A stretch of 64,000 nucleotides of DNA from Defluviitaleaceae bacterium (GTDB lineage Bacteria > Bacillota > Clostridia > Lachnospirales > WRAX01): positions 1 to 64,000 of the forward strand of contig WRAC01000006.1 of assembly GCA_009780415.1 (NCBI GenBank), given 5' to 3'. Position numbers and translations under genes: made by a program. Positions 54,613-64,000 of the stretch are shown in pieces. Positions within the stretch are counted from its first letter, which is position 1. Every line of letters begins with the position of its first letter. The notes beneath the pieces were generated by a model. That model was not told where the DNA came from. It searched no databases and saw only the letters and a list, made by a program, of their open reading frames with translations.

Positions 54613-57228
54613 ATGAGAAAGCTTTTCTGCGCGGCTGCGCTTGTTATGATATTCTTACTGCCGGGGAGCGTGAAGGTTATGGCGGCCCAGGAATTCCGCG
54701 CCGTTTGGGTCTGCTCGGTGCTAAACCTTGACTGGCCCAGCAGACCGGGTTTGAGCGTTGCCGAAATGAAATCCGAAGCGGACTACATAATGGACCGTGC
54801 GGCGGAAATCGGCTTAAACGCGATTATTTTACAAGTACGCCCTGAGGGGGACGCAATATATAAATCCGATATCTTCCCCTGGTCGCGTTTTCTGACAGGC
54901 ACGCAGGGGGACGCACCCGCCGATGGCTTTGACCCCCTGGAATATTGGATTGAGGGATCGCACAGACGCGGAATGGAGCTTCATGCTTGGATAAACCCGT
55001 ACCGCATAACCCATCGCGCATGGAACGTAACGGACGTTAATACGCTTGCGCCCAACAATCCCGCTCGGCAAAACCCGCATTTAACCAAGGTACACGGGCC
55101 CGCGCTGTTTTACGACCCCGGATTGCCCGCCGCGCGCGACCTCATTATCAGTGGCATTATAGAAATCATAACAAATTATAATGTTGACGGCATTCATTTG
55201 GACGATTATTTTTATCCCGCCAGGGATTTTAACGATGACGACACCTTCGCCGCGCATGGGGCGGGCTGGGATAACAAGGACTATTGGCGCAGGGAAAGCG
55301 TAAACACGCTGATAGCGGATATACAGCAAGCCATTCGCCATATCCGCCCGGAGGCGCGGTTCGGTATATCGCCCGTCGGCATTTGGCGCAACCGCAGCTC
55401 CGACCCGCTGGGCAGCGACACCCGGGGTTACGAGGGGTATTCCGAAATATTCGGGGATAGCCGCAGATGGGTGCTGGAGGGCTGGGTGGACTACATCTGC
55501 CCTCAGATATACTGGGCAATCGGCCACAGCAGCGCGGACTTCTCAACGCTGCTGCGCTGGTGGCATGACTTGGCCCGCGATACCGGCGTTGACCTGTACA
55601 TTGGCTTGGCGGCGTACAAAGAGGTGGACGGAGATTCGGCCTGGCCGGCGGGATCGGGCGAGATTATGCGCCAGCTTCAATACATGCAGCATTTCGATTC
55701 GATTGACGGGCATGTACATTTTCGGGCAAGGCATTTGTACGGCGGTTTAGGCGATCAAATCAAGGGGTTTTACGATAACCAGGTTATCAACCAAGGGTTT
55801 TATTCACCTTTGGTTATCGCCAGTGACCTGACAGTCGTTCAGCCGCGAGAAAACGTAACCGTCAGGGCCGCGGCAGGTTATTATATGTTTGGCGCCGCCG
55901 ACCCCAACCTTCCCGTCTATATGAATGGCATTCTCGTTGAAAACCGCACGGCTGAAGGGTTTTGGAGCGTTTACGCGCCCCTTTCGCAAGGAGATAATGT
56001 GTTTACCTTTACACAGGAGGGACGCCAATCCATTACGCGTACAATTACGAACAGGGAAGCCGCAACCCCCGCCCCGCCGAGGGATCCCATGAGGATCAAC
56101 GACTACGCCGCCGACCATCCCCTTTACGCAACCGTTAAGGACACGGCGATTTGGGCGTTTCCCGGGCATATGACCACCGGGGGTTCATCCTGGCTTTTGC
56201 TGCCGGGGCAGAAGGACAAGGTGACGGGTATGACAGAGGACGGGGCTTGGCTGCGGCTTAGCAGCGGCGCGTGGGTTGAAGCCAAGGACGTAGACACGCG
56301 TACCGAGGCCGCTTTAATCCTGAACCCCCTCCGCGACGGGATATATATGCACGATTTCCCGGATCTGCATTCGGTGACATGGCTTGCCACTGAATTCCCC
56401 GCCACAAATGTTATTTTTGAGGATAATGTACTGACCCTGTATTTCGGTATGCACACAACCGCTCCATATCTGGATATAGCCGACGGCGCGGGTCTTGACG
56501 ACACTATATTCAGCTCGGTGCAATCCGGTATGGATGGCGGCACGCCTTTCTACGCGTTTACAATCAAACCGGATGTGAATTTGGAAGGCTATTGGCAGAA
56601 TTACCAGCACGGAGCGTACAAATTCTTCTTCAAGCTGCGCAAAGCCTTCAGCGGCGGCGCAAACCCGCTTTCGGGATTTGTTTTCGTACTGGATGCCGGG
56701 CACGGGGGCAGCGAACCCGGCGCAAGGGGCGCGCTGGGCAATTTTATGGTTGAGAAGGATTTAAACCTCCCCATTACCCAAAAGCTTGCAGCAAGGCTTG
56801 AAGCCCTCGGCGCTCAGGTACACCTTACGCGGAACAGCGATACTTACGTTTCCGTGTTCCAGCGTACGGAGATAAGCCGCTCCGTCAAGCCCGACATGTT
56901 TATCTCCGTTCATTGCGACAGCGTCGCCGAAACGACGGATTCCACAAATATCCGGGGTACGACCATATATTACCGGAACGAGCTGAGCGGCCCCGCGGCC
57001 AATGCGTTCTTGCAAAACGTACATACCGTTAACCCCGCCACAACGCGCAATTTCGGTACAAGAACCGCCAATTTCTATGTCTGCCGCCCTTCCTGGGCGC
57101 CGTCTGTCCTTGTTGAGGTAAGCTTCATGAATAATATCCATGACTATTCATGGCTTTTAAACCCTGAGAATCAGGACGCCGTGGCGGCGGCTATAGTTGA
57201 CGCGGTATTGGCTTATTACAGGGATTAA
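54613..57228 (+). CDS. Secreted fusion of GHL10 (DigH/YngK-like) glycosidase and N-acetylmuramoyl-L-alanine amidase
   Basis: The 871-residue protein begins with a signal peptide (MRKLFCAAALVMIFLLPGSV). Residues 26 to about 385 are a GHL10/DUF187 domain: FRAVWVCSVLNLDWPSRPG, LNAIILQVRPEGDAIYKS, LHAWINPYRIT, GIHLDDYFYP. Beta-rich linkers follow. Residues from about 690 are an Amidase_3 domain with LDAGHGG (zinc His, about 697), VEKDLNL (zinc Glu), SVHCDS (second His) and EVSFMNN (catalytic Glu). E. coli DigH (YddW), of the same glycosidase family, cleaves glycan strands stripped of peptides, which are amidase products. The fusion would thus do both steps of septal wall cleavage. Metal residues all look intact. 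Confidence 0.9.
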   Translation: MRKLFCAAALVMIFLLPGSVKVMAAQEFRAVWVCSVLNLDWPSRPGLSVAEMKSEADYIMDRAAEIGLNAIILQVRPEGDAIYKSDIFPWSRFLTGTQGDAPADGFDPLEYWIEGSHRRGMELHAWINPYRITHRAWNVTDVNTLAPNNPARQNPHLTKVHGPALFYDPGLPAARDLIISGIIEIITNYNVDGIHLDDYFYPARDFNDDDTFAAHGAGWDNKDYWRRESVNTLIADIQQAIRHIRPEARFGISPVGIWRNRSSDPLGSDTRGYEGYSEIFGDSRRWVLEGWVDYICPQIYWAIGHSSADFSTLLRWWHDLARDTGVDLYIGLAAYKEVDGDSAWPAGSGEIMRQLQYMQHFDSIDGHVHFRARHLYGGLGDQIKGFYDNQVINQGFYSPLVIASDLTVVQPRENVTVRAAAGYYMFGAADPNLPVYMNGILVENRTAEGFWSVYAPLSQGDNVFTFTQEGRQSITRTITNREAATPAPPRDPMRINDYAADHPLYATVKDTAIWAFPGHMTTGGSSWLLLPGQKDKVTGMTEDGAWLRLSSGAWVEAKDVDTRTEAALILNPLRDGIYMHDFPDLHSVTWLATEFPATNVIFEDNVLTLYFGMHTTAPYLDIADGAGLDDTIFSSVQSGMDGGTPFYAFTIKPDVNLEGYWQNYQHGAYKFFFKLRKAFSGGANPLSGFVFVLDAGHGGSEPGARGALGNFMVEKDLNLPITQKLAARLEALGAQVHLTRNSDTYVSVFQRTEISRSVKPDMFISVHCDSVAETTDSTNIRGTTIYYRNELSGPAANAFLQNVHTVNPATTRNFGTRTANFYVCRPSWAPSVLVEVSFMNNIHDYSWLLNPENQDAVAAAIVDAVLAYYRD

Positions 57229-57233
57229 GATAA

Positions 57234-60200
57234 ATGTCCGCTCTCGGCCTCTTTGACCCGATAACGAAAAACTGGTTCCAAGGCACCTTGGGAGAACCTA
57301 CGCCCGTGCAGGAGAAAGCCTGGCCCGCAATTGCCGCGGGCGGGCATACGCTGGTCTGCGCGCCGACGGGCACAGGTAAAACCCTTAGTGCCTTTTTGGT
57401 TTTTATAGACAGGTTAAAATCCATGGCGCGGGCGGGTACATTGGAAAAGAAGCTGTATGTAATCTATATTTCACCGCTGAAGGCCTTGGCGGGGGATATC
57501 CGCGAAAATCTGCACAAACCCCTGCGCGGTATTTTTCAGGATGAGGTAAAATCCGGTATCTCAACGGTTGAAAACCCCCATGGGCTGAACATCTCCATCC
57601 GCACGGGTGACACAACTACCGCCGAACGCCGGAGAATGATAAAATCACCTCCGCATATCCTGATTACCACGCCGGAGTCACTATATCTGCTGCTTTCAAG
57701 CACATCCGGCCGCGGTATTCTGGAAAAGGCGCAGGCTATAATCATAGACGAGCTGCACGCGATGATAGACACCAAGCGCGGGGCGCATCTCATGTTTTCA
57801 TTGGCAAGGCTGGACAAGCTTTGCGGCAGGCCCTTGCAGCGGATCGGCCTTTCCGCGACGGTGGAACCGCCCGAGCTTGCGGCTGATTATCTGTCCGGCG
57901 GCGAACCCGTTGAGATTGTCGCGCCAAAAATGAAGAAAGCTTATGAAATAGCGGTTATTGACCCTTCGGATGAAATGATGGTTTTGCCGGAGGGTACGAT
58001 ATGGCCGGAGATAGCCCGGCATGTTTACGAGCAGTGCATTGATGCCCGGAGCGTTATCGCCTTTGTCGAAGGGCGTATGTACGCGGAAAAATTAGCTTAC
58101 TATGTAAACTTGACAGCGGGCGAAAATTTCGCAAGGACGCATCATGGCTGCGTCTCAAAGGAACAGCGGCATCAGGCCGAAAACGACCTGCGCAGCGGCA
58201 AATTGCGGCTTTTGTGCGCCACCTCCTCAATGGAGCTAGGCATTGACGTGGGCGATATTGACCGCGTTGTCCAAATAAGTTATCCCCGCTCCATCTCCAG
58301 CGTTATGCAGCGTCTGGGACGCGCCGGGCATAATCCGGGGCGCGTCAGCGTTATGCGCATGTTTCCGCGTATGACCTCCGAGGCGCTGTACTGCGGGCTT
58401 ACCGCACGGGTCGCGATGGATGGCGGCATCGAGCGTTCCCGTCCGCCGCGCCTGTGTTTCGACGTGCTGGCCCAGCATTTGGTTTCCATGGCGGCGGTTG
58501 AGGATTATTGCATAGACGGCGTGATGGATATCCTGCCGCGCGCGTATCCGTTCAGGGAAGTAACGCGCGGGGATGTGTGCGACATCCTCTGTATGCTGGC
58601 GGGGGATTATGAGCACAACCGCGATTTACCCGTTCGCCCCAGGCTTCTGTACGACCGCGTAAACGGCACGGTGGAAGGGGATAACTACAGCCGGCTGCTG
58701 GCGGTATCAACGGGCGGCACGATCCCCGACATGGGCATGTTTTCGGTGCGCGCTGAAAATGGCACAAAATTAGGCGAGCTGGACGAGGAGTTTGTATTCG
58801 AGGCACGCGTGGGCGATAAGTTCATGCTGGGTTCGTTCGCGTGGAAAATACGCCGTATAGACCGCGAATCCGTTACGGTGTCCCAAACCAACGCCGAGGG
58901 CGCTCAGCCCCCTTTTTGGCGGCACGCGTGGCTTTCGCGGAAGCTGCAGACCAGCATGGCCTTCGGGCAAATCATCAGCCGCATAAACGAAGCGCGGGAA
59001 TACGATGGCATTCTGAACATTTTGCGCGAATGCGGCCTGGATGACTCCGCCGCGCAAAACACCACCCGGCTGATACAGCGGCAAATGGACGCCACGGGCG
59101 TACTGCCCGACCACCGCACTATTATTGCCGAGCATTTCAACGACGAAGCCGGCGATAACCAGATTATGATACACAGCATCTTCGGGCGCCAGATAAACGC
59201 GCCGCTCTCGATTCTTCTGCAGGAGGCGGCAAAGCGTACGACATACACGGATATAACATGTTTCGAGGACGACGACGGCGTGCTGATGATGTCTACGGGC
59301 GGCGCATTCCCCGAGGGCCTTCTGCGCCGCATTGACCCTGAAACGGCGCAAGACGAGCTTGCCGCCATCCTGCCCGCAACCCCGCTGTTTGGCATGACCT
59401 TCCGCTACAACTCCGCCCGCGCGCTTATGATGGGCGTTAGACAGGCCAAGCGGGTGCCGCTGTGGGTTCAGCGGCTGCGCGCGGCGGAGATGCTTGATAT
59501 GGTGGTGGGATATGAGAATCATCCCCTGATACGCGAAACCAAGCGCGAATGCATGGAGGATTATTGGGATATCCCCGGCCTGTGCGGAGTTTTACGAGAC
59601 ATACGCGCAGGTAAGATACAGGTAAGGGAGATTTTTGTGACGGAGCCGTCGCCCCTGTCGCTTCAATTACGGAGGCAGGCGGAGAGTTCGCTGCTTTACG
59701 TATACAATCCCAGCACGTCCGGCATAAACCGGGCGGCTAACGACGCTTTGCAATCAGTAATTGAATTGAAGCCCGCCGCCGAAGCCCTTGCCCGCGCCGC
59801 GGAGCGCAGGCGTTTGCCCGAGGACGCGAACAGCTTGCATTCGCTGCTTATGATGGAAGGCGATCTGGAGGCCGGGGAGCTGGATATTCCGCTGGAGTGG
59901 CTTGAGGAACTGGCGGCAAAAAACCGCGCGGCTTATATTGAACCGGGCTTGTGGATTGCCGCCGAACATAATGAAGAGTATACCAATGCGTTTGAACATA
60001 GTGATGAGGCGGCATTGACCCGTATAGCGCGGCGTGCGCTGCGTTTCCGAGGGCCGCTGGACGGGGCGGCGCTTGCCGCGCGGTATTCGCTGGCATTGGA
60101 TGAAGCCGTGCGGATATTGGATCGGCTGGTTGGCGAAAAGGCCGCGAAACCTGACGACGGATTATATTACCACACCGACGTTTACGAACGGGCGCGCGGC

Positions 60201-61385
60201 GAAACCATTCAGGCCCGCCGCCGTCAAGCCAAAACCCAGCCCGCCGCCCATTACGCCGCTCTTCTAACGGAAAAGGCATTCCTTGCCGCGCCGCCTCCCG
60301 AACAGCTGCGCGCGGCCCTTGAACTGCTGAAAAACCGCGAATTCCCGCCCGAAGCTTGGGAAGCCGCGCTTTTACCCGCCCGTGTGACGGCTTACCGCCC
60401 GCAGATGCTTGACGCGCTGCTAGGGGAGGGTGGGTTTTATTGGCGTTTCGGCAATGGGGAAAATCTAAGCTTCCATTCATACGCCGACGCGGACTGGGAA
60501 ACCGACATGTCGGCTAAAGCCGGGGATTTGGCCGGTGACAGGCTAATCATCTATCAAACCCTGCTGAGCCGCGGAGCGGTATTTGCTTCCGCCTTAACGG
60601 GGCCGCTTGCGGGCCGCCCCGCCCATGACGCGCTGCGGGATTTGATGGCGGGAGGGCTTGTACACGCCGACAGCTTCATGCCCGTCAGACAGTTGCTTGA
60701 CCGCGCAAAGACCGAAAAATCAACAGCCAGACAGCGCGTCAACGCCCGGGTGCAGACCTTGACCTCCGGACGCTGGGATATCTCGCGCCCTGTTATTTCA
60801 AGCGCATTGGAAGAAGCGATCAACCAGGCGTTTGACAAATATGTTATTCTGTGCCGCGAAACTGCCAAGGAATTGGGCTTGCCGTGGGCGGAAGCGCTGG
60901 AGCTCCTCCGCGCTATGGAGTACACCGGGGCCGCGCGGCGCGGGTACTTTGTGGACGGGCTTTCCGGGGCGCAATACGTGAGGGATGGCGATTACACCTA
61001 CACCGTCGCCGCCCTAGAGGCCCCCGCGCAGGAGCTCCGCTGGCTTCCCGCCCAGGACCCCTGCCAGCCTTGGGGGCATGTTTTAAAGCATCATCAGGAT
61101 AGGGAGTTCATGCTTGGGCAGGGTACCTATGCCGCGCTGCATGCGGGGCTGCCGATTGCCGTATTTGAGCGTTCCGGCGCGGCCTTGCGCGTATTTAACG
61201 CTGAGCCTGAGCTGGTTGATTCCGCCTTGAGGCGTTTTGTTTCGGATTTCACTGCGCGCCGGGTTTATCCGGCGGCAAAGCGCATAACCGTTAAGAATTA
61301 TCCGCCAAATGCGGAAGCGGCTTTAGCAGCCGCCGGGTTTGCGCGTGTTATGGATGATTTCGTTCTGCGCCGTGATCATTATTAA
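57234..61385 (+). CDS. lhr: Lhr-type large helicase
   Basis: The 1383-residue protein is a superfamily 2 helicase of the Lhr group, thought to act in DNA repair. Q-motif-like PTPVQEKAWP, Walker A CAPTGTGKT (43-50), DELHAM (motif II, about 172), SATV and the motif VI arginines in MQRLGRAGHNPG are present. After the two RecA lobes come a winged helix and the long C-terminal Lhr core (ALYCGLTARV, DVLAQHLVSMA). The last ~400 residues form the additional C-terminal half of full-length bacterial Lhr. The start follows the amidase stop by 5 bases. It overlaps the convergent ATPase gene by 38 bases. Confidence 0.92.
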   Translation: MSALGLFDPITKNWFQGTLGEPTPVQEKAWPAIAAGGHTLVCAPTGTGKTLSAFLVFIDRLKSMARAGTLEKKLYVIYISPLKALAGDIRENLHKPLRGIFQDEVKSGISTVENPHGLNISIRTGDTTTAERRRMIKSPPHILITTPESLYLLLSSTSGRGILEKAQAIIIDELHAMIDTKRGAHLMFSLARLDKLCGRPLQRIGLSATVEPPELAADYLSGGEPVEIVAPKMKKAYEIAVIDPSDEMMVLPEGTIWPEIARHVYEQCIDARSVIAFVEGRMYAEKLAYYVNLTAGENFARTHHGCVSKEQRHQAENDLRSGKLRLLCATSSMELGIDVGDIDRVVQISYPRSISSVMQRLGRAGHNPGRVSVMRMFPRMTSEALYCGLTARVAMDGGIERSRPPRLCFDVLAQHLVSMAAVEDYCIDGVMDILPRAYPFREVTRGDVCDILCMLAGDYEHNRDLPVRPRLLYDRVNGTVEGDNYSRLLAVSTGGTIPDMGMFSVRAENGTKLGELDEEFVFEARVGDKFMLGSFAWKIRRIDRESVTVSQTNAEGAQPPFWRHAWLSRKLQTSMAFGQIISRINEAREYDGILNILRECGLDDSAAQNTTRLIQRQMDATGVLPDHRTIIAEHFNDEAGDNQIMIHSIFGRQINAPLSILLQEAAKRTTYTDITCFEDDDGVLMMSTGGAFPEGLLRRIDPETAQDELAAILPATPLFGMTFRYNSARALMMGVRQAKRVPLWVQRLRAAEMLDMVVGYENHPLIRETKRECMEDYWDIPGLCGVLRDIRAGKIQVREIFVTEPSPLSLQLRRQAESSLLYVYNPSTSGINRAANDALQSVIELKPAAEALARAAERRRLPEDANSLHSLLMMEGDLEAGELDIPLEWLEELAAKNRAAYIEPGLWIAAEHNEEYTNAFEHSDEAALTRIARRALRFRGPLDGAALAARYSLALDEAVRILDRLVGEKAAKPDDGLYYHTDVYERARGETIQARRRQAKTQPAAHYAALLTEKAFLAAPPPEQLRAALELLKNREFPPEAWEAALLPARVTAYRPQMLDALLGEGGFYWRFGNGENLSFHSYADADWETDMSAKAGDLAGDRLIIYQTLLSRGAVFASALTGPLAGRPAHDALRDLMAGGLVHADSFMPVRQLLDRAKTEKSTARQRVNARVQTLTSGRWDISRPVISSALEEAINQAFDKYVILCRETAKELGLPWAEALELLRAMEYTGAARRGYFVDGLSGAQYVRDGDYTYTVAALEAPAQELRWLPAQDPCQPWGHVLKHHQDREFMLGQGTYAALHAGLPIAVFERSGAALRVFNAEPELVDSALRRFVSDFTARRVYPAAKRITVKNYPPNAEAALAAAGFARVMDDFVLRRDHY

Positions 61386-62235
61386 ACTCATTTCTTCGCG
61401 TATCAAAGAATTCATGAAATAGCCGCACATTTTCCAACTCCGTCCACGGCTGTACCGCCGCCGGGTTTTCATCAAGGTTATATATCTTCGCTCCGCGCAG
61501 GGCAAGGATAAATGGCGAGTGAGTGGAGATAATCAACTGGCACCCGAAAAACCGCACGGAGTTTTCGATGAATCCAGCTAATTCAATCTGGCGTTTTGGC
61601 GAAAGGCTGTTTTCAGGCTCGTCTAAAAGATACAGCCCGTTTTCGCCTATTTTCTCCGTAAAGTATTGGAATGCAGATTCTCCGTTTGAGAATTCCCTTA
61701 TATTATCAATTAATTCACCGCGCACAAACCGCGATTGTGTCTTACTCCGCGCTTTACCGACTTTTTTAAGCTGATCATAATCCGCCATCGACTTTAATTG
61801 AAACTGTGAATGCTTCGCGTCCAGATATTCCGTAAAAAGCTCATCCCGCTTCAAGTCAATTCCCTCGTTCAGGCCGCGTATGTCCAGCATAAAGTCAAAA
61901 ACGTCGTCGCTCGTTACAATACGGCTGTTTTCCGGGACGCGGGCTTGGATTTCCATTTTACACATTCCAACGTAATCGGGAAAGAAATTTGTTTTGTTAT
62001 AAGTTGAATCGCGCCGAACCTTCAATTTCTCCGCGATAACATTTAACGCCGTCGATTTTCCCGAGCCGTTTCCGCCGTAAAAAATGGTTATAGGCTCAAA
62101 ATCAACTCTTCCAAGGCAATGTTTTGACAATACCTTAAACGGATAAAAAGAGTCGTAGCACGTTCTTCTCGTGCCCAGAATAAAAAGTGTTTCCGCATTG
62201 TCATCAGGAAATGTAAAGCTCTTCAAATAAACCAT
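61348..62235 (-). CDS. AAA ATPase of the COG3910 type
   Basis: The 295-residue protein has Walker A FYGGNGSGKST near residue 55, and near the end LYLLDEPENSLSPKRQIELA (Walker B) plus QLIISTHSPFILALRGAKIYNL (switch histidine). This is the ABC/Rad50-like group of stand-alone predicted ATPases, which lack membrane parts. Its start is one base from the methyltransferase stop, so the two are translated together. The role is unknown. Such ATPases occur in defence and repair modules as well as alone. Its last 38 bases overlap lhr. Confidence 0.88.
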   Translation of the reverse strand: MVYLKSFTFPDDNAETLFILGTRRTCYDSFYPFKVLSKHCLGRVDFEPITIFYGGNGSGKSTALNVIAEKLKVRRDSTYNKTNFFPDYVGMCKMEIQARVPENSRIVTSDDVFDFMLDIRGLNEGIDLKRDELFTEYLDAKHSQFQLKSMADYDQLKKVGKARSKTQSRFVRGELIDNIREFSNGESAFQYFTEKIGENGLYLLDEPENSLSPKRQIELAGFIENSVRFFGCQLIISTHSPFILALRGAKIYNLDENPAAVQPWTELENVRLFHEFFDTRRNEFNNDHGAERNHP

Positions 62236-63009
62236 TTATTTCTCCGTAATATACAGAACCTCATTCGCGTATTCCTCCCTGTAAATAACAGGAAGCCCGT
62301 TCATAAACGCGTCATAGGTATCTTTCATGCCAACATTTTTCCCGGACATTGTTTTTGTCGGAAAACTGATTGCGGCGTAACGGGCATTCAATTCGCCCAG
62401 CACGCGCCGCGCGCCGTTTTTTTCCAAACGCTCAAGCAGCGGCAGCAATTTAAACATGAATACGCAATCAACACTGGTTTCCGGCGTTTTTACCAGGATA
62501 TCACCGGCAAACGCCTCCCCCTTTATTCCGAGTTTTTCAATCAATTTCCGCACTAAGGCAATCGCGCGGGTATGTACGTCCATTGCGTAGTATTCCACAC
62601 CTTTCATACAATCCGTATGCGGAATCATAAACGGGCCCAGACCGCAGCCCACATCCAAAACGCTGTTAAAACCCGTAACGCGCCGGATATCGCAAAGCAT
62701 CCGCGCAAAATGGCGCTTACGTTCCAGTGTAGACTGGTGCAAATCCAGAACTTCCGCGGTTTTCGCCAAAACATCCCCGGAGCAATCCCAATCCGTTTCA
62801 TTCATAATGCTTTCCGCGCGTTTAACCGCCGCTTCGGGCAAAAACGCCGCCGAAATCTCCCGCAGGGTTGATTTTACGGATTTTAACACCAGCTTCTCGG
62901 ACTTATATTTAGGAACAGCCGCAAAGATAACCCTTTGAACAGTTTCGCCGCATATCCCGCCGTATTCCTTCGATGCCTTTACAGCTTCAAACAGTTTATC
63001 GGTATCCAT
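62236..63009 (-). CDS. ArmA/Rmt-like 16S rRNA (guanine-N7) methyltransferase
   Basis: The 257-residue protein matches the ArmA/Rmt/Kgm (FmrO) family in length and pattern. It has LHQSTLERKRHF (family: HxSTxER), the SAM site VLDVGCGLGPFMIP (family: LDxxCGxNP; Asn is here Gly), AMDVHTRAIALV, FMFKLLPLLERLEK and AISFPTKTMSGKNVGM, then ANEVLYITEK. Known members methylate N7 of G1405 in 16S rRNA and give high resistance to gentamicin-type aminoglycosides. Here activity and target are unproven. It overlaps the TGT-like gene by 14 bases and precedes an ATPase, unlike the mobile resistance genes I know. Confidence 0.88.
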   Translation of the reverse strand: MDTDKLFEAVKASKEYGGICGETVQRVIFAAVPKYKSEKLVLKSVKSTLREISAAFLPEAAVKRAESIMNETDWDCSGDVLAKTAEVLDLHQSTLERKRHFARMLCDIRRVTGFNSVLDVGCGLGPFMIPHTDCMKGVEYYAMDVHTRAIALVRKLIEKLGIKGEAFAGDILVKTPETSVDCVFMFKLLPLLERLEKNGARRVLGELNARYAAISFPTKTMSGKNVGMKDTYDAFMNGLPVIYREEYANEVLYITEK

Positions 63010-64000
63010 ATAAATTCTTCCTAAGTTGAGACGTCAGCATGGAATAAAACCTCAGATTATGCATGGTAGCAAGCCTGTACGCCAGCGGGTCGTTCGTTTT
63101 GAACAGATGTCTCAGATACGACTTTGAATGGCGGCGGCACAGGAGGCAATCACAGAATTTAGAGACGGGCGTGATGTCCACAGCATATTTATCGTCCAGA
63201 ATATAGATATGGCGGTAGAAACTTTTATCCGTCAAATCGGCTTCATTGGGAGCTTTCATGAACGCGTAAAGCCTGTTATGCCGCGCTTCACGCGTGGGTA
63301 TCACGCAGTCGAACAAATCATATCCCATGCCTGCCAATACAGCGATTTCCTCCGGCCTCCCAAGGCCCATTGCGTATTTAACGGCGTTTTCGGGCATCAG
63401 CTCCGCCGTGTAGCGCAGCATGTCCAGCACCAGTCCGCCCCTGGCATCCAGGGGCCAGCCGCCGTAGCCGTAGCCGTCAAAGCCCATTTTTATCAGTTCG
63501 CGGGCGCAGCGGCTCCGCAGCTCGCGGCTTGAGCCGCCTTGGATTACGGCGAACAGGAGAGGGCGGTTGCCGCCGGAAGCCAGCTTTTCATATTCCCTTT
63601 TGCAAGCCGCCGCCCAGCGGATGGTGGTTTCCACGGATTTTTCCTGCTCTTCCGGCGGGTCGTCCGGCGCGGTGCAATAATCCAGGCACACAATGATGTC
63701 CGATTTTACGGCAAACTGTATTTGAATACATTTTTCCGGCGTGAATATAAGCTTCTCGTTACCCATGTCCGGTCTGAAAATGATTTTGTCCTTCAAAATC
63801 TGCCCGTAATCCGGGTTTTCGCGGATCAGCGAATACACCTGAAATCCGCCTGAATCCGTTAAAACCGGGCCGTCCCATCCGGAAAACGCGTGTATCCCGC
63901 CATGACGGCGGATGGCGTTCTGCCCGGGCTTGCGGTGCAGATGATAGGCGTTCATAACTATGCCGTCTACGCCGGCTTCCCTCAAATCATCCGCGCCGGC
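62996..64000 (-). CDS. Queuine/7-deazaguanine tRNA-ribosyltransferase-like protein (5' end outside window)
   Basis: TGT swaps guanine 34 of tRNA for a queuosine precursor. The frame is open to the right edge, so the N-terminus is missing. Catalytic and structural parts are visible: VLTDSGGFQVYSL, FAVIQGGSSREL, YAMGLGRPEE, LFDCVIPTR (nucleophile Asp) and the zinc site FCDCLLCRRH with a later His in ATMHNLRFYS. The base-recognition loop that reads GGLAVGE in E. coli is GGWPLDA, and FDECTP is LDYCTAP. PTRNARNG is PTREARHN. I infer a paralogue with a different base or RNA. It leads the operon with the rRNA methyltransferase and ATPase. Confidence 0.88.
   Translation of the reverse strand, partial: AGADDLREAGVDGIVMNAYHLHRKPGQNAIRRHGGIHAFSGWDGPVLTDSGGFQVYSLIRENPDYGQILKDKIIFRPDMGNEKLIFTPEKCIQIQFAVKSDIIVCLDYCTAPDDPPEEQEKSVETTIRWAAACKREYEKLASGGNRPLLFAVIQGGSSRELRSRCARELIKMGFDGYGYGGWPLDARGGLVLDMLRYTAELMPENAVKYAMGLGRPEEIAVLAGMGYDLFDCVIPTREARHNRLYAFMKAPNEADLTDKSFYRHIYILDDKYAVDITPVSKFCDCLLCRRHSKSYLRHLFKTNDPLAYRLATMHNLRFYSMLTSQLRKNLYGYR

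Follow-up and report, generated by a model that had tools for sequence, protein, structure and literature searches.

A conserved chromosomal pair of a transglycosylase paralogue and an Rmt-family 16S rRNA methyltransferase as a candidate module for decoding-centre modification

The window analysed here is a stretch of 64,000 nucleotides from a Defluviitaleaceae bacterium, covering positions 1 to 64,000 of contig WRAC01000006.1 (which extends to 72896) in assembly GCA_009780415.1, a genome of 2.53 Mb with a completeness of 100%. At its right-hand edge, three genes lie head to tail on the minus strand, as a sequence-only reading of this DNA had described. The first (62996..64000) is the 3' part of a gene for a paralogue of the tRNA-guanine transglycosylase (TGT) Tgt, hereafter TGTp, which matches PF01702 with 308.6 bits. 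The gene is cut by the window edge and continues to about position 64081 on the contig, assuming a start at the ATG that overlaps the stop codon of the preceding gene by 4 nt (ATGA); full-length TGTp proteins have 360-367 residues. The second gene (62236..63009, minus strand, 257 residues) encodes a homologue of the Rmt/FmrO-family 16S rRNA (guanine-1405 N7) methyltransferases, related to PF07091 and NF000466, and the third (61348..62235, minus strand, 295 residues) an AAA_21 ABC-type ATPase (PF13304, 59 bits). The TGT stop and the Rmt start share a confirmed overlap of 14 nt on the minus strand (62996..63009, ATGGATACCGATAA), from which we infer translational coupling, while the ATPase gene follows the Rmt gene without any spacer (TAAATG). 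Upstream of the TGT, beyond the window, lies a gene for a YgiQ-family radical S-adenosylmethionine (SAM) protein of 603 residues (TIGR03904, 789 bits versus a cut-off of 462). A second, canonical Tgt is encoded on another contig of the same genome (G000:C40).

Across the phylum, we find a good match to the Rmt in seven of 398 sampled genomes, and a DNA pattern search for the TGT signature GFDGxGxGGWP recovers exactly the same seven, with the TGT immediately upstream of the Rmt in 7/7. If the two genes were distributed independently, identical sets would arise with a chance of 1/C(398,7) = 3e-15, a value that is optimistic owing to phylogeny (5 genera, 4 families). Scanning named GTDB contigs with the TGTp signature region yields at least 80 loci. 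An Rmt gene lies near TGTp in 68 of 92 loci, and the two genes typically overlap by 4, 8 or 14 nt; distances were taken from the longest open frame, and some large overlaps are start-codon artefacts. Most of the loci come from metagenome assemblies, and the neighbour counts lack phylogenetic independence. We find the pair in Clostridia, Chloroflexota, Armatimonadota, Ignavibacteriota and Poribacteria. Among the Chloroflexota, 29 of 151 genomes carry an Rmt, and TGTp is found within 1.5 kb at 24 of 30 Rmt loci. Orthologous pairs show 46-71% identity to the window TGT and 27-44% to the window Rmt, the TGT being far more conserved.

The third gene behaves differently. Homologues of the ATPase occur in 4 of 57 relatives, never with a TGT or Rmt alongside, and at other loci the place after the Rmt is taken by RsmI, RsmF-like or unrelated genes. 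Likewise, YgiQ adjoins the TGT in the family to which the window belongs (G000, G003) and nowhere else, which rules it out as a general partner. As the ATPase is sporadic and never beside the pair, and YgiQ is confined to one family, the conserved unit is TGTp plus Rmt, a co-directional two-gene unit found in related and unrelated genomes, and the ATPase is a lineage-specific neighbour outside it. A three-gene module including the ATPase, as the sequence-only reading had proposed, is thereby ruled out; what stands of that proposal is the pair, with RNA modification as its likely business.

Within the TGT family, TGTp forms a subfamily with the signature GFDGYGYGGWPLD. The window TGT does not pass the bacterial Tgt model TIGR00430 (289.2 bits versus a cut-off of 306.75), a shortfall due in part to truncation, as the part within the window lacks about 27 N-terminal residues; it does pass the superfamily model TIGR00449 (283.6 versus 47.6). 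The AlphaFold model of a 71%-identical orthologue has a pLDDT of 94.5, and its best match in the PDB is Zymomonas mobilis Tgt, with a Z-score of 45.6 and a root-mean-square deviation of 1.6-1.7 over 340 aligned residues. TGTp thus shares with the bacterial Tgt of Z. mobilis and T. maritima the fold, the catalytic aspartates, the Zn site and about 32-37% identity; the equivalents of D102, D156, Q203 and D280 and the C/C/C/H Zn ligands are nearly invariant in 91 TGTp sequences. It differs in falling below the TIGR00430 cut-off, in an additional segment ahead of the Zn motif, in having FPDAT where Tgt has an FMPVGT-like sequence, and in the loop GGLAVGE, which becomes GGWP[LI]D: W231 is present in 85 and P232 in 88 of the 91 sequences, and E235 is conserved in only 11. 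In Z. mobilis Tgt, the Leu231/Ala232 peptide flips to expose its NH towards guanine or its carbonyl towards preQ1, with Glu235 backing both states (PMC3660597). Since a proline at position 232 has no NH, the known guanine state of this switch could not form in TGTp. The changed loop would fit a base substituted at position 7, a deazaguanine or, on a more speculative view, N7-methylguanine. The residues matching R286 and R289 of Tgt (PTRxAR) are invariant in TGTp; in Z. mobilis Tgt, these two arginines touch the anticodon loop.

TGTp mostly coexists with the canonical enzyme, which is also present in 36 of 40 TGTp genomes (36 of 37 outside Patescibacteria and archaea); two Patescibacteria, one archaeon and one further assembly have TGTp alone. 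In addition to canonical Tgt and TGTp, one Poribacteria genome encodes a third member of the TGT family, which is only distantly related (G430:C5:17479-18495, 101.6 bits). A phage origin of TGTp was considered and rejected, as a scan of viral sequences gave only four contigs (L114-L117) encoding TGT relatives; identity to the signature region was about 40%, and there was no Rmt in the stretch covered.

The window Rmt passes the FmrO model PF07091 (78.3 bits versus 27) and not NF000466 (196.6 bits versus 250), a cut-off that its orthologue in G045 does exceed (254.5 bits). It retains the SAM-binding and catalytic motifs HxSTxER, DxxCGxxP, K187 and SFPTxxxxGxxxGM, and keeps 25 of the 28 positions that are at least 80% conserved in 111 Rmts, one of the changes being conservative (L to M). 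It is homologous over its full length to the acquired enzymes RmtA-H and ArmA, with most positions of the SAM and target-site motifs in common, but is only 28-33% identical to them, lies below the NF000466 cut-off and carries H50R and N115G (RmtB numbering). In eight Chloroflexota loci (L075, L076, L080, L082, L093, L099, L101 and L103), TGTp is followed by two tandem Rmt genes, the second of which forms its own clade in the Rmt tree, and in seven of the eight an RsmF-like 5-methylcytosine methyltransferase gene comes next. The tandem enzymes may methylate two different guanines. Two divergent Rmt genes also occur near RsmI and TGTp in a Bacteroidia locus (L068), where both precede RsmI-TGTp, one of them on the opposite strand, and in an Ignavibacteria locus (L098), where they flank RsmI-TGTp on both sides.

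Clustering of all genes within 7 kb of 87 TGTp loci shows that the commonest neighbours after TGTp and Rmt are RsmI (44), RsmH (12) and, in Chloroflexota, the RsmF-like methyltransferase (7). In the 86 non-redundant loci, Rmt occurs in 66, RsmI in 43, RsmH in 12 and the RsmF-like gene in 7, with at least one of these four in 72. By NCBIfam, RsmI scores above its cut-off in 7 loci from different phyla and RsmH also lies above cut-off; for the RsmF-like proteins RsmF is the best match, below cut-off. All of these enzymes have their targets in helix 44 of 16S rRNA, C1402 for RsmI and RsmH and C1407 for RsmF, flanking the Rmt target G1405 (PMC12406665). The gene order varies by lineage, from RsmI-TGTp-Rmt to RsmH-TGTp-Rmt-RsmI, Rmt-RsmI-TGTp-Rmt and TGTp-Rmt-Rmt-RsmF-like, so that the link was kept through rearrangement. 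Such variety speaks against plain inheritance of a single order. RsmI lies beside TGTp with no Rmt seen in 5 of the 86 loci (4 from candidate division WWE3 and 1 contig-end Chloroflexi). Of 22 genomes examined, a sample partly picked for RsmI loci, 18 have only one RsmI gene, and 20 have an RsmI gene no more than about 6 kb away from TGTp.

Using the window Rmt and TGT as queries against plasmids, we find a gene of the TGTp subfamily upstream of rmtG, rmtE2, rmtD1 and rmtB2. The plasmid TGT is intact with rmtG, rmtD1 and rmtB2 and truncated with rmtE2, and a metallophosphoesterase gene separates it from rmtB2; no annotated TGT lies near the examined rmtF, rmtC, armA, common rmtB and rmtE1 loci. 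In a maximum-likelihood tree of the 111 Rmts, whose bootstrap is not fully settled and in which ArmA and RmtC are long branches of unsure place, RmtB2, RmtD1, RmtF and RmtG fall inside a clade of chromosomal Rmts from gut and rumen clostridia (support 100/99), and the sister of RmtE2 is an Rmt from Oscillospiraceae (L056, support 100/88). The flanks of the mobile segments agree with this placement. On the rmtG segment, a complete rsmH and remnants of trpS and rsmI are arranged as in clostridia and share 71-84% identity with the clostridial genes. The open frames that follow rmtE2 and the L056 Rmt are 58% identical to each other. The rmtG operon of Klebsiella pneumoniae plasmids such as pKP13f (trpS'-rsmH-tgt-rmtG-rsmI') resembles the window operon in having TGTp directly upstream of the Rmt, here with an 8-nt overlap, and its order trpS, rsmH, TGTp, Rmt, rsmI is that of the chromosomes of the gut Clostridia L064 and L067. 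It differs in being plasmid-borne with IS91-like elements on its flanks, in an RmtG only 32% identical to the window Rmt, and in having RsmH and RsmI where the window has YgiQ upstream and the ATPase downstream. The clostridial TGTp-Rmt context is evidently the source from which rmtB, rmtD, rmtE and rmtG were mobilised; the best plasmid-to-chromosomal Rmt identities are only 46-57%, so that the chromosomes examined do not include the direct donors. The K. pneumoniae plasmid 6411TF (L027) and pEc09 (L023) show duplication of such units: TGT-rmtD1 and TGT-rmtG each occur there as two direct copies, which suggests amplification together with the TGT.

The sequence-only reading had called the operon undescribed. 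Earlier papers had already remarked on rmtG standing in one operon with rsmH and tgt on plasmids (PMC9311965, PMC3904158), so that the term is only partly right. In a literature search that was thin on subscription journals, we found no description of the chromosomal pair, of a TGT common to four plasmid families, or of a TGT acting on rRNA.

We propose that TGTp and Rmt form a two-gene chromosomal module that would modify the decoding centre of the 30S subunit. Judging from its family, Rmt would use SAM to methylate N7 of G1405. TGTp, with the catalytic anatomy of Tgt, would exchange a guanine base by the same double displacement, through an aspartate nucleophile and a covalent RNA intermediate, and the base put in would most likely be a 7-substituted 7-deazaguanine. 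Its site would be at or next to the part of 16S rRNA that Rmt acts on, and both enzymes would jointly tune P-site decoding. Aminoglycoside resistance would then be a by-product, for which selection began only once the genes had reached Gram-negative plasmids. Counting in a tRNA role of TGTp in the same process, we hold it probable that the pair modifies the decoding centre. The best explanation as a whole, in which the base exchanged by TGTp lies in 16S rRNA, stands at an even balance, and the predicted rRNA base exchange by TGTp, taken by itself, at even or slightly below. We are a little more tentative about the full extension of this proposal, in which TGTp would be the first transglycosylase to exchange a base in rRNA and, with Rmt, RsmI, RsmH and RsmF, would build a modification cluster around 16S positions 1392-1407 by placing 7-deazaguanine or a similar base there, and in which the mobile B/D/E/F/G-group G1405 methyltransferases of Gram-negative pathogens would descend from this housekeeping module. 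A possible site is the conserved 16S U1391-G1392-U1393 (E. coli numbering), which we take to resemble the UGU recognised by Tgt and regard only as a lead; a search for 16S genes in 12 host assemblies recovered none.

Several observations weigh against a joint action on 16S rRNA. The literature searched contains no experiment on TGTp, whether with rRNA or otherwise, and no 7-deazaguanine in rRNA. A clear QueC is found in only 4 of 40 TGTp genomes, many matches of 20-30 bits looking like other proteins of the ATP-pyrophosphatase fold. This rules out de novo preQ supply as a requirement, and the incoming base would have to be mostly salvaged. RsmI and RsmH are ordinary housekeeping genes, beside which the pair may have come to lie merely for its regulation. 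The window's own copy of the pair may also be atypical. The two exceptions among the 22 genomes surveyed for RsmI are members of the window's own family, with RsmI elsewhere in the genome, and since 20 of the 22 have it near TGTp, the window operon is a derived version in which YgiQ replaces RsmI/RsmH. In addition, the window Rmt has R50 in place of a near-invariant histidine and G125 in place of an asparagine (H50 and N115 in RmtB numbering). Among the 111 Rmts, an arginine at His50 (98% conserved) is found only in the window Rmt and its G003 orthologue (L021:197-1000), and these two have G or T at the position that is mostly Asn; the target or activity of Rmt may have shifted in this family. 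Finally, the kept equivalents of R286 and R289 would also suit the UGU of a tRNA anticodon.

This last point leads to the main rival, in which TGTp is a second tRNA-guanine transglycosylase that inserts a different base at position 34 of some tRNAs. Its link with Rmt, RsmI and RsmH would follow from the stacking of wobble base 34 of the P-site tRNA on 16S C1400, all of these enzymes tuning P-site decoding. The fold and active site of TGTp are those of Tgt, the PTRxAR arginines are invariant, and TGTp is the sole TGT in the Patescibacteria and the archaeon sampled. However, position 34 is already served by canonical Tgt in nearly all the other TGTp genomes, the recurring neighbours act on rRNA, and a different substrate is suggested by the altered loop and by the additional segment ahead of the Zn site, so that we consider this rival unlikely, if still a serious one. 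Much less probable is a role of TGTp as an eraser that removes the N7-methylguanine made by Rmt and restores guanine or another base, thereby making G1405 methylation reversible. Both proteins do concern position 7 of guanine, and W231/P232 stand in place of residues whose backbone NH reads N7, so that a methylated, cationic N7 might be tolerated and the aromatic residue could stack on it. This argument is purely structural and drawn from sequence, Patescibacteria and archaea have TGTp unaccompanied by an Rmt, and we know of no RNA base-exchange eraser of such a kind.

The remaining rivals concern protection of the host. That the pair is an intrinsic aminoglycoside-resistance cassette against antibiotic-producing neighbours is equally improbable, although plasmid Rmts of the same clade confer pan-aminoglycoside resistance (PMC9311965). 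The neighbourhoods hold rRNA housekeeping genes and not resistance or production genes, and the TGT is left without explanation. Most hosts are gut Clostridia or Anaerolineae, in which aminoglycoside uptake is poor. Self-protection, which the sequence-only reading had raised, could arise as a side effect, but there is no sign of a production cluster, and anaerobes are frequent among the hosts. The same reading had suggested an RNA-targeting defence module of all three genes, which we regard as very remote. The ATPase does match the AriA and PtuA models, as well as AriA structures, but it is not co-conserved with the pair, which by itself largely refutes this reading. Moreover, PADLOC returns only generic AAA, methyltransferase and helicase matches at the locus and none for the window TGT, the operon contains no nuclease or toxin, and the neighbours at other loci are rRNA modification genes. 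A base exchange by TGTp in the decoding centre remains our preferred reading.

The helicase match belongs to an Lhr gene (57234-61385, plus strand, 1383 residues) whose 3' end overlaps the ATPase gene convergently by 38 nt. PADLOC labels it DpdJ with 476 bits, but the NCBIfam DpdJ model gives 48.7 versus a cut-off of 800, and the label is likely a false defence annotation. A TGT-family protein near a helicase with such a match recalls the Dpd system, in which DpdA is TGT-like and DpdJ helicase-like. In contrast to Dpd, the window helicase is an ordinary Lhr on the opposite strand, no DpdB, DpdC or clear QueC lies next to the TGT, and the genome holds no clear QueC (best match 22.5 bits). Dpd-like DNA modification is ruled out by the TGT without PADLOC match and the helicase far below the DpdJ cut-off. 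Five nucleotides upstream of Lhr, another plus-strand gene (54613-57228) encodes a GHL10 glycosyl-hydrolase-like domain fused to a CwlD-like N-acetylmuramoyl-L-alanine amidase in one protein.

Taken together, the TGTp-Rmt pair is widespread and was little noticed before, prior mention of the link having been found only for rmtG. It offers a natural home, and likely source lineages among gut and rumen Clostridia and Oscillospiraceae, for several clinically important genes of pan-aminoglycoside resistance, and suggests that this resistance is incidental to a normal pathway of decoding-centre modification. A cultured host exists in Ornatilinea apprima P3M-1, whose locus (L093) holds TGTp, two Rmt genes and the RsmF-like gene in an overlapping array, which makes the question directly testable. 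The pair also points to a TGT subfamily in its own right, and base exchange in rRNA, if true, would represent a novel type of rRNA modification.

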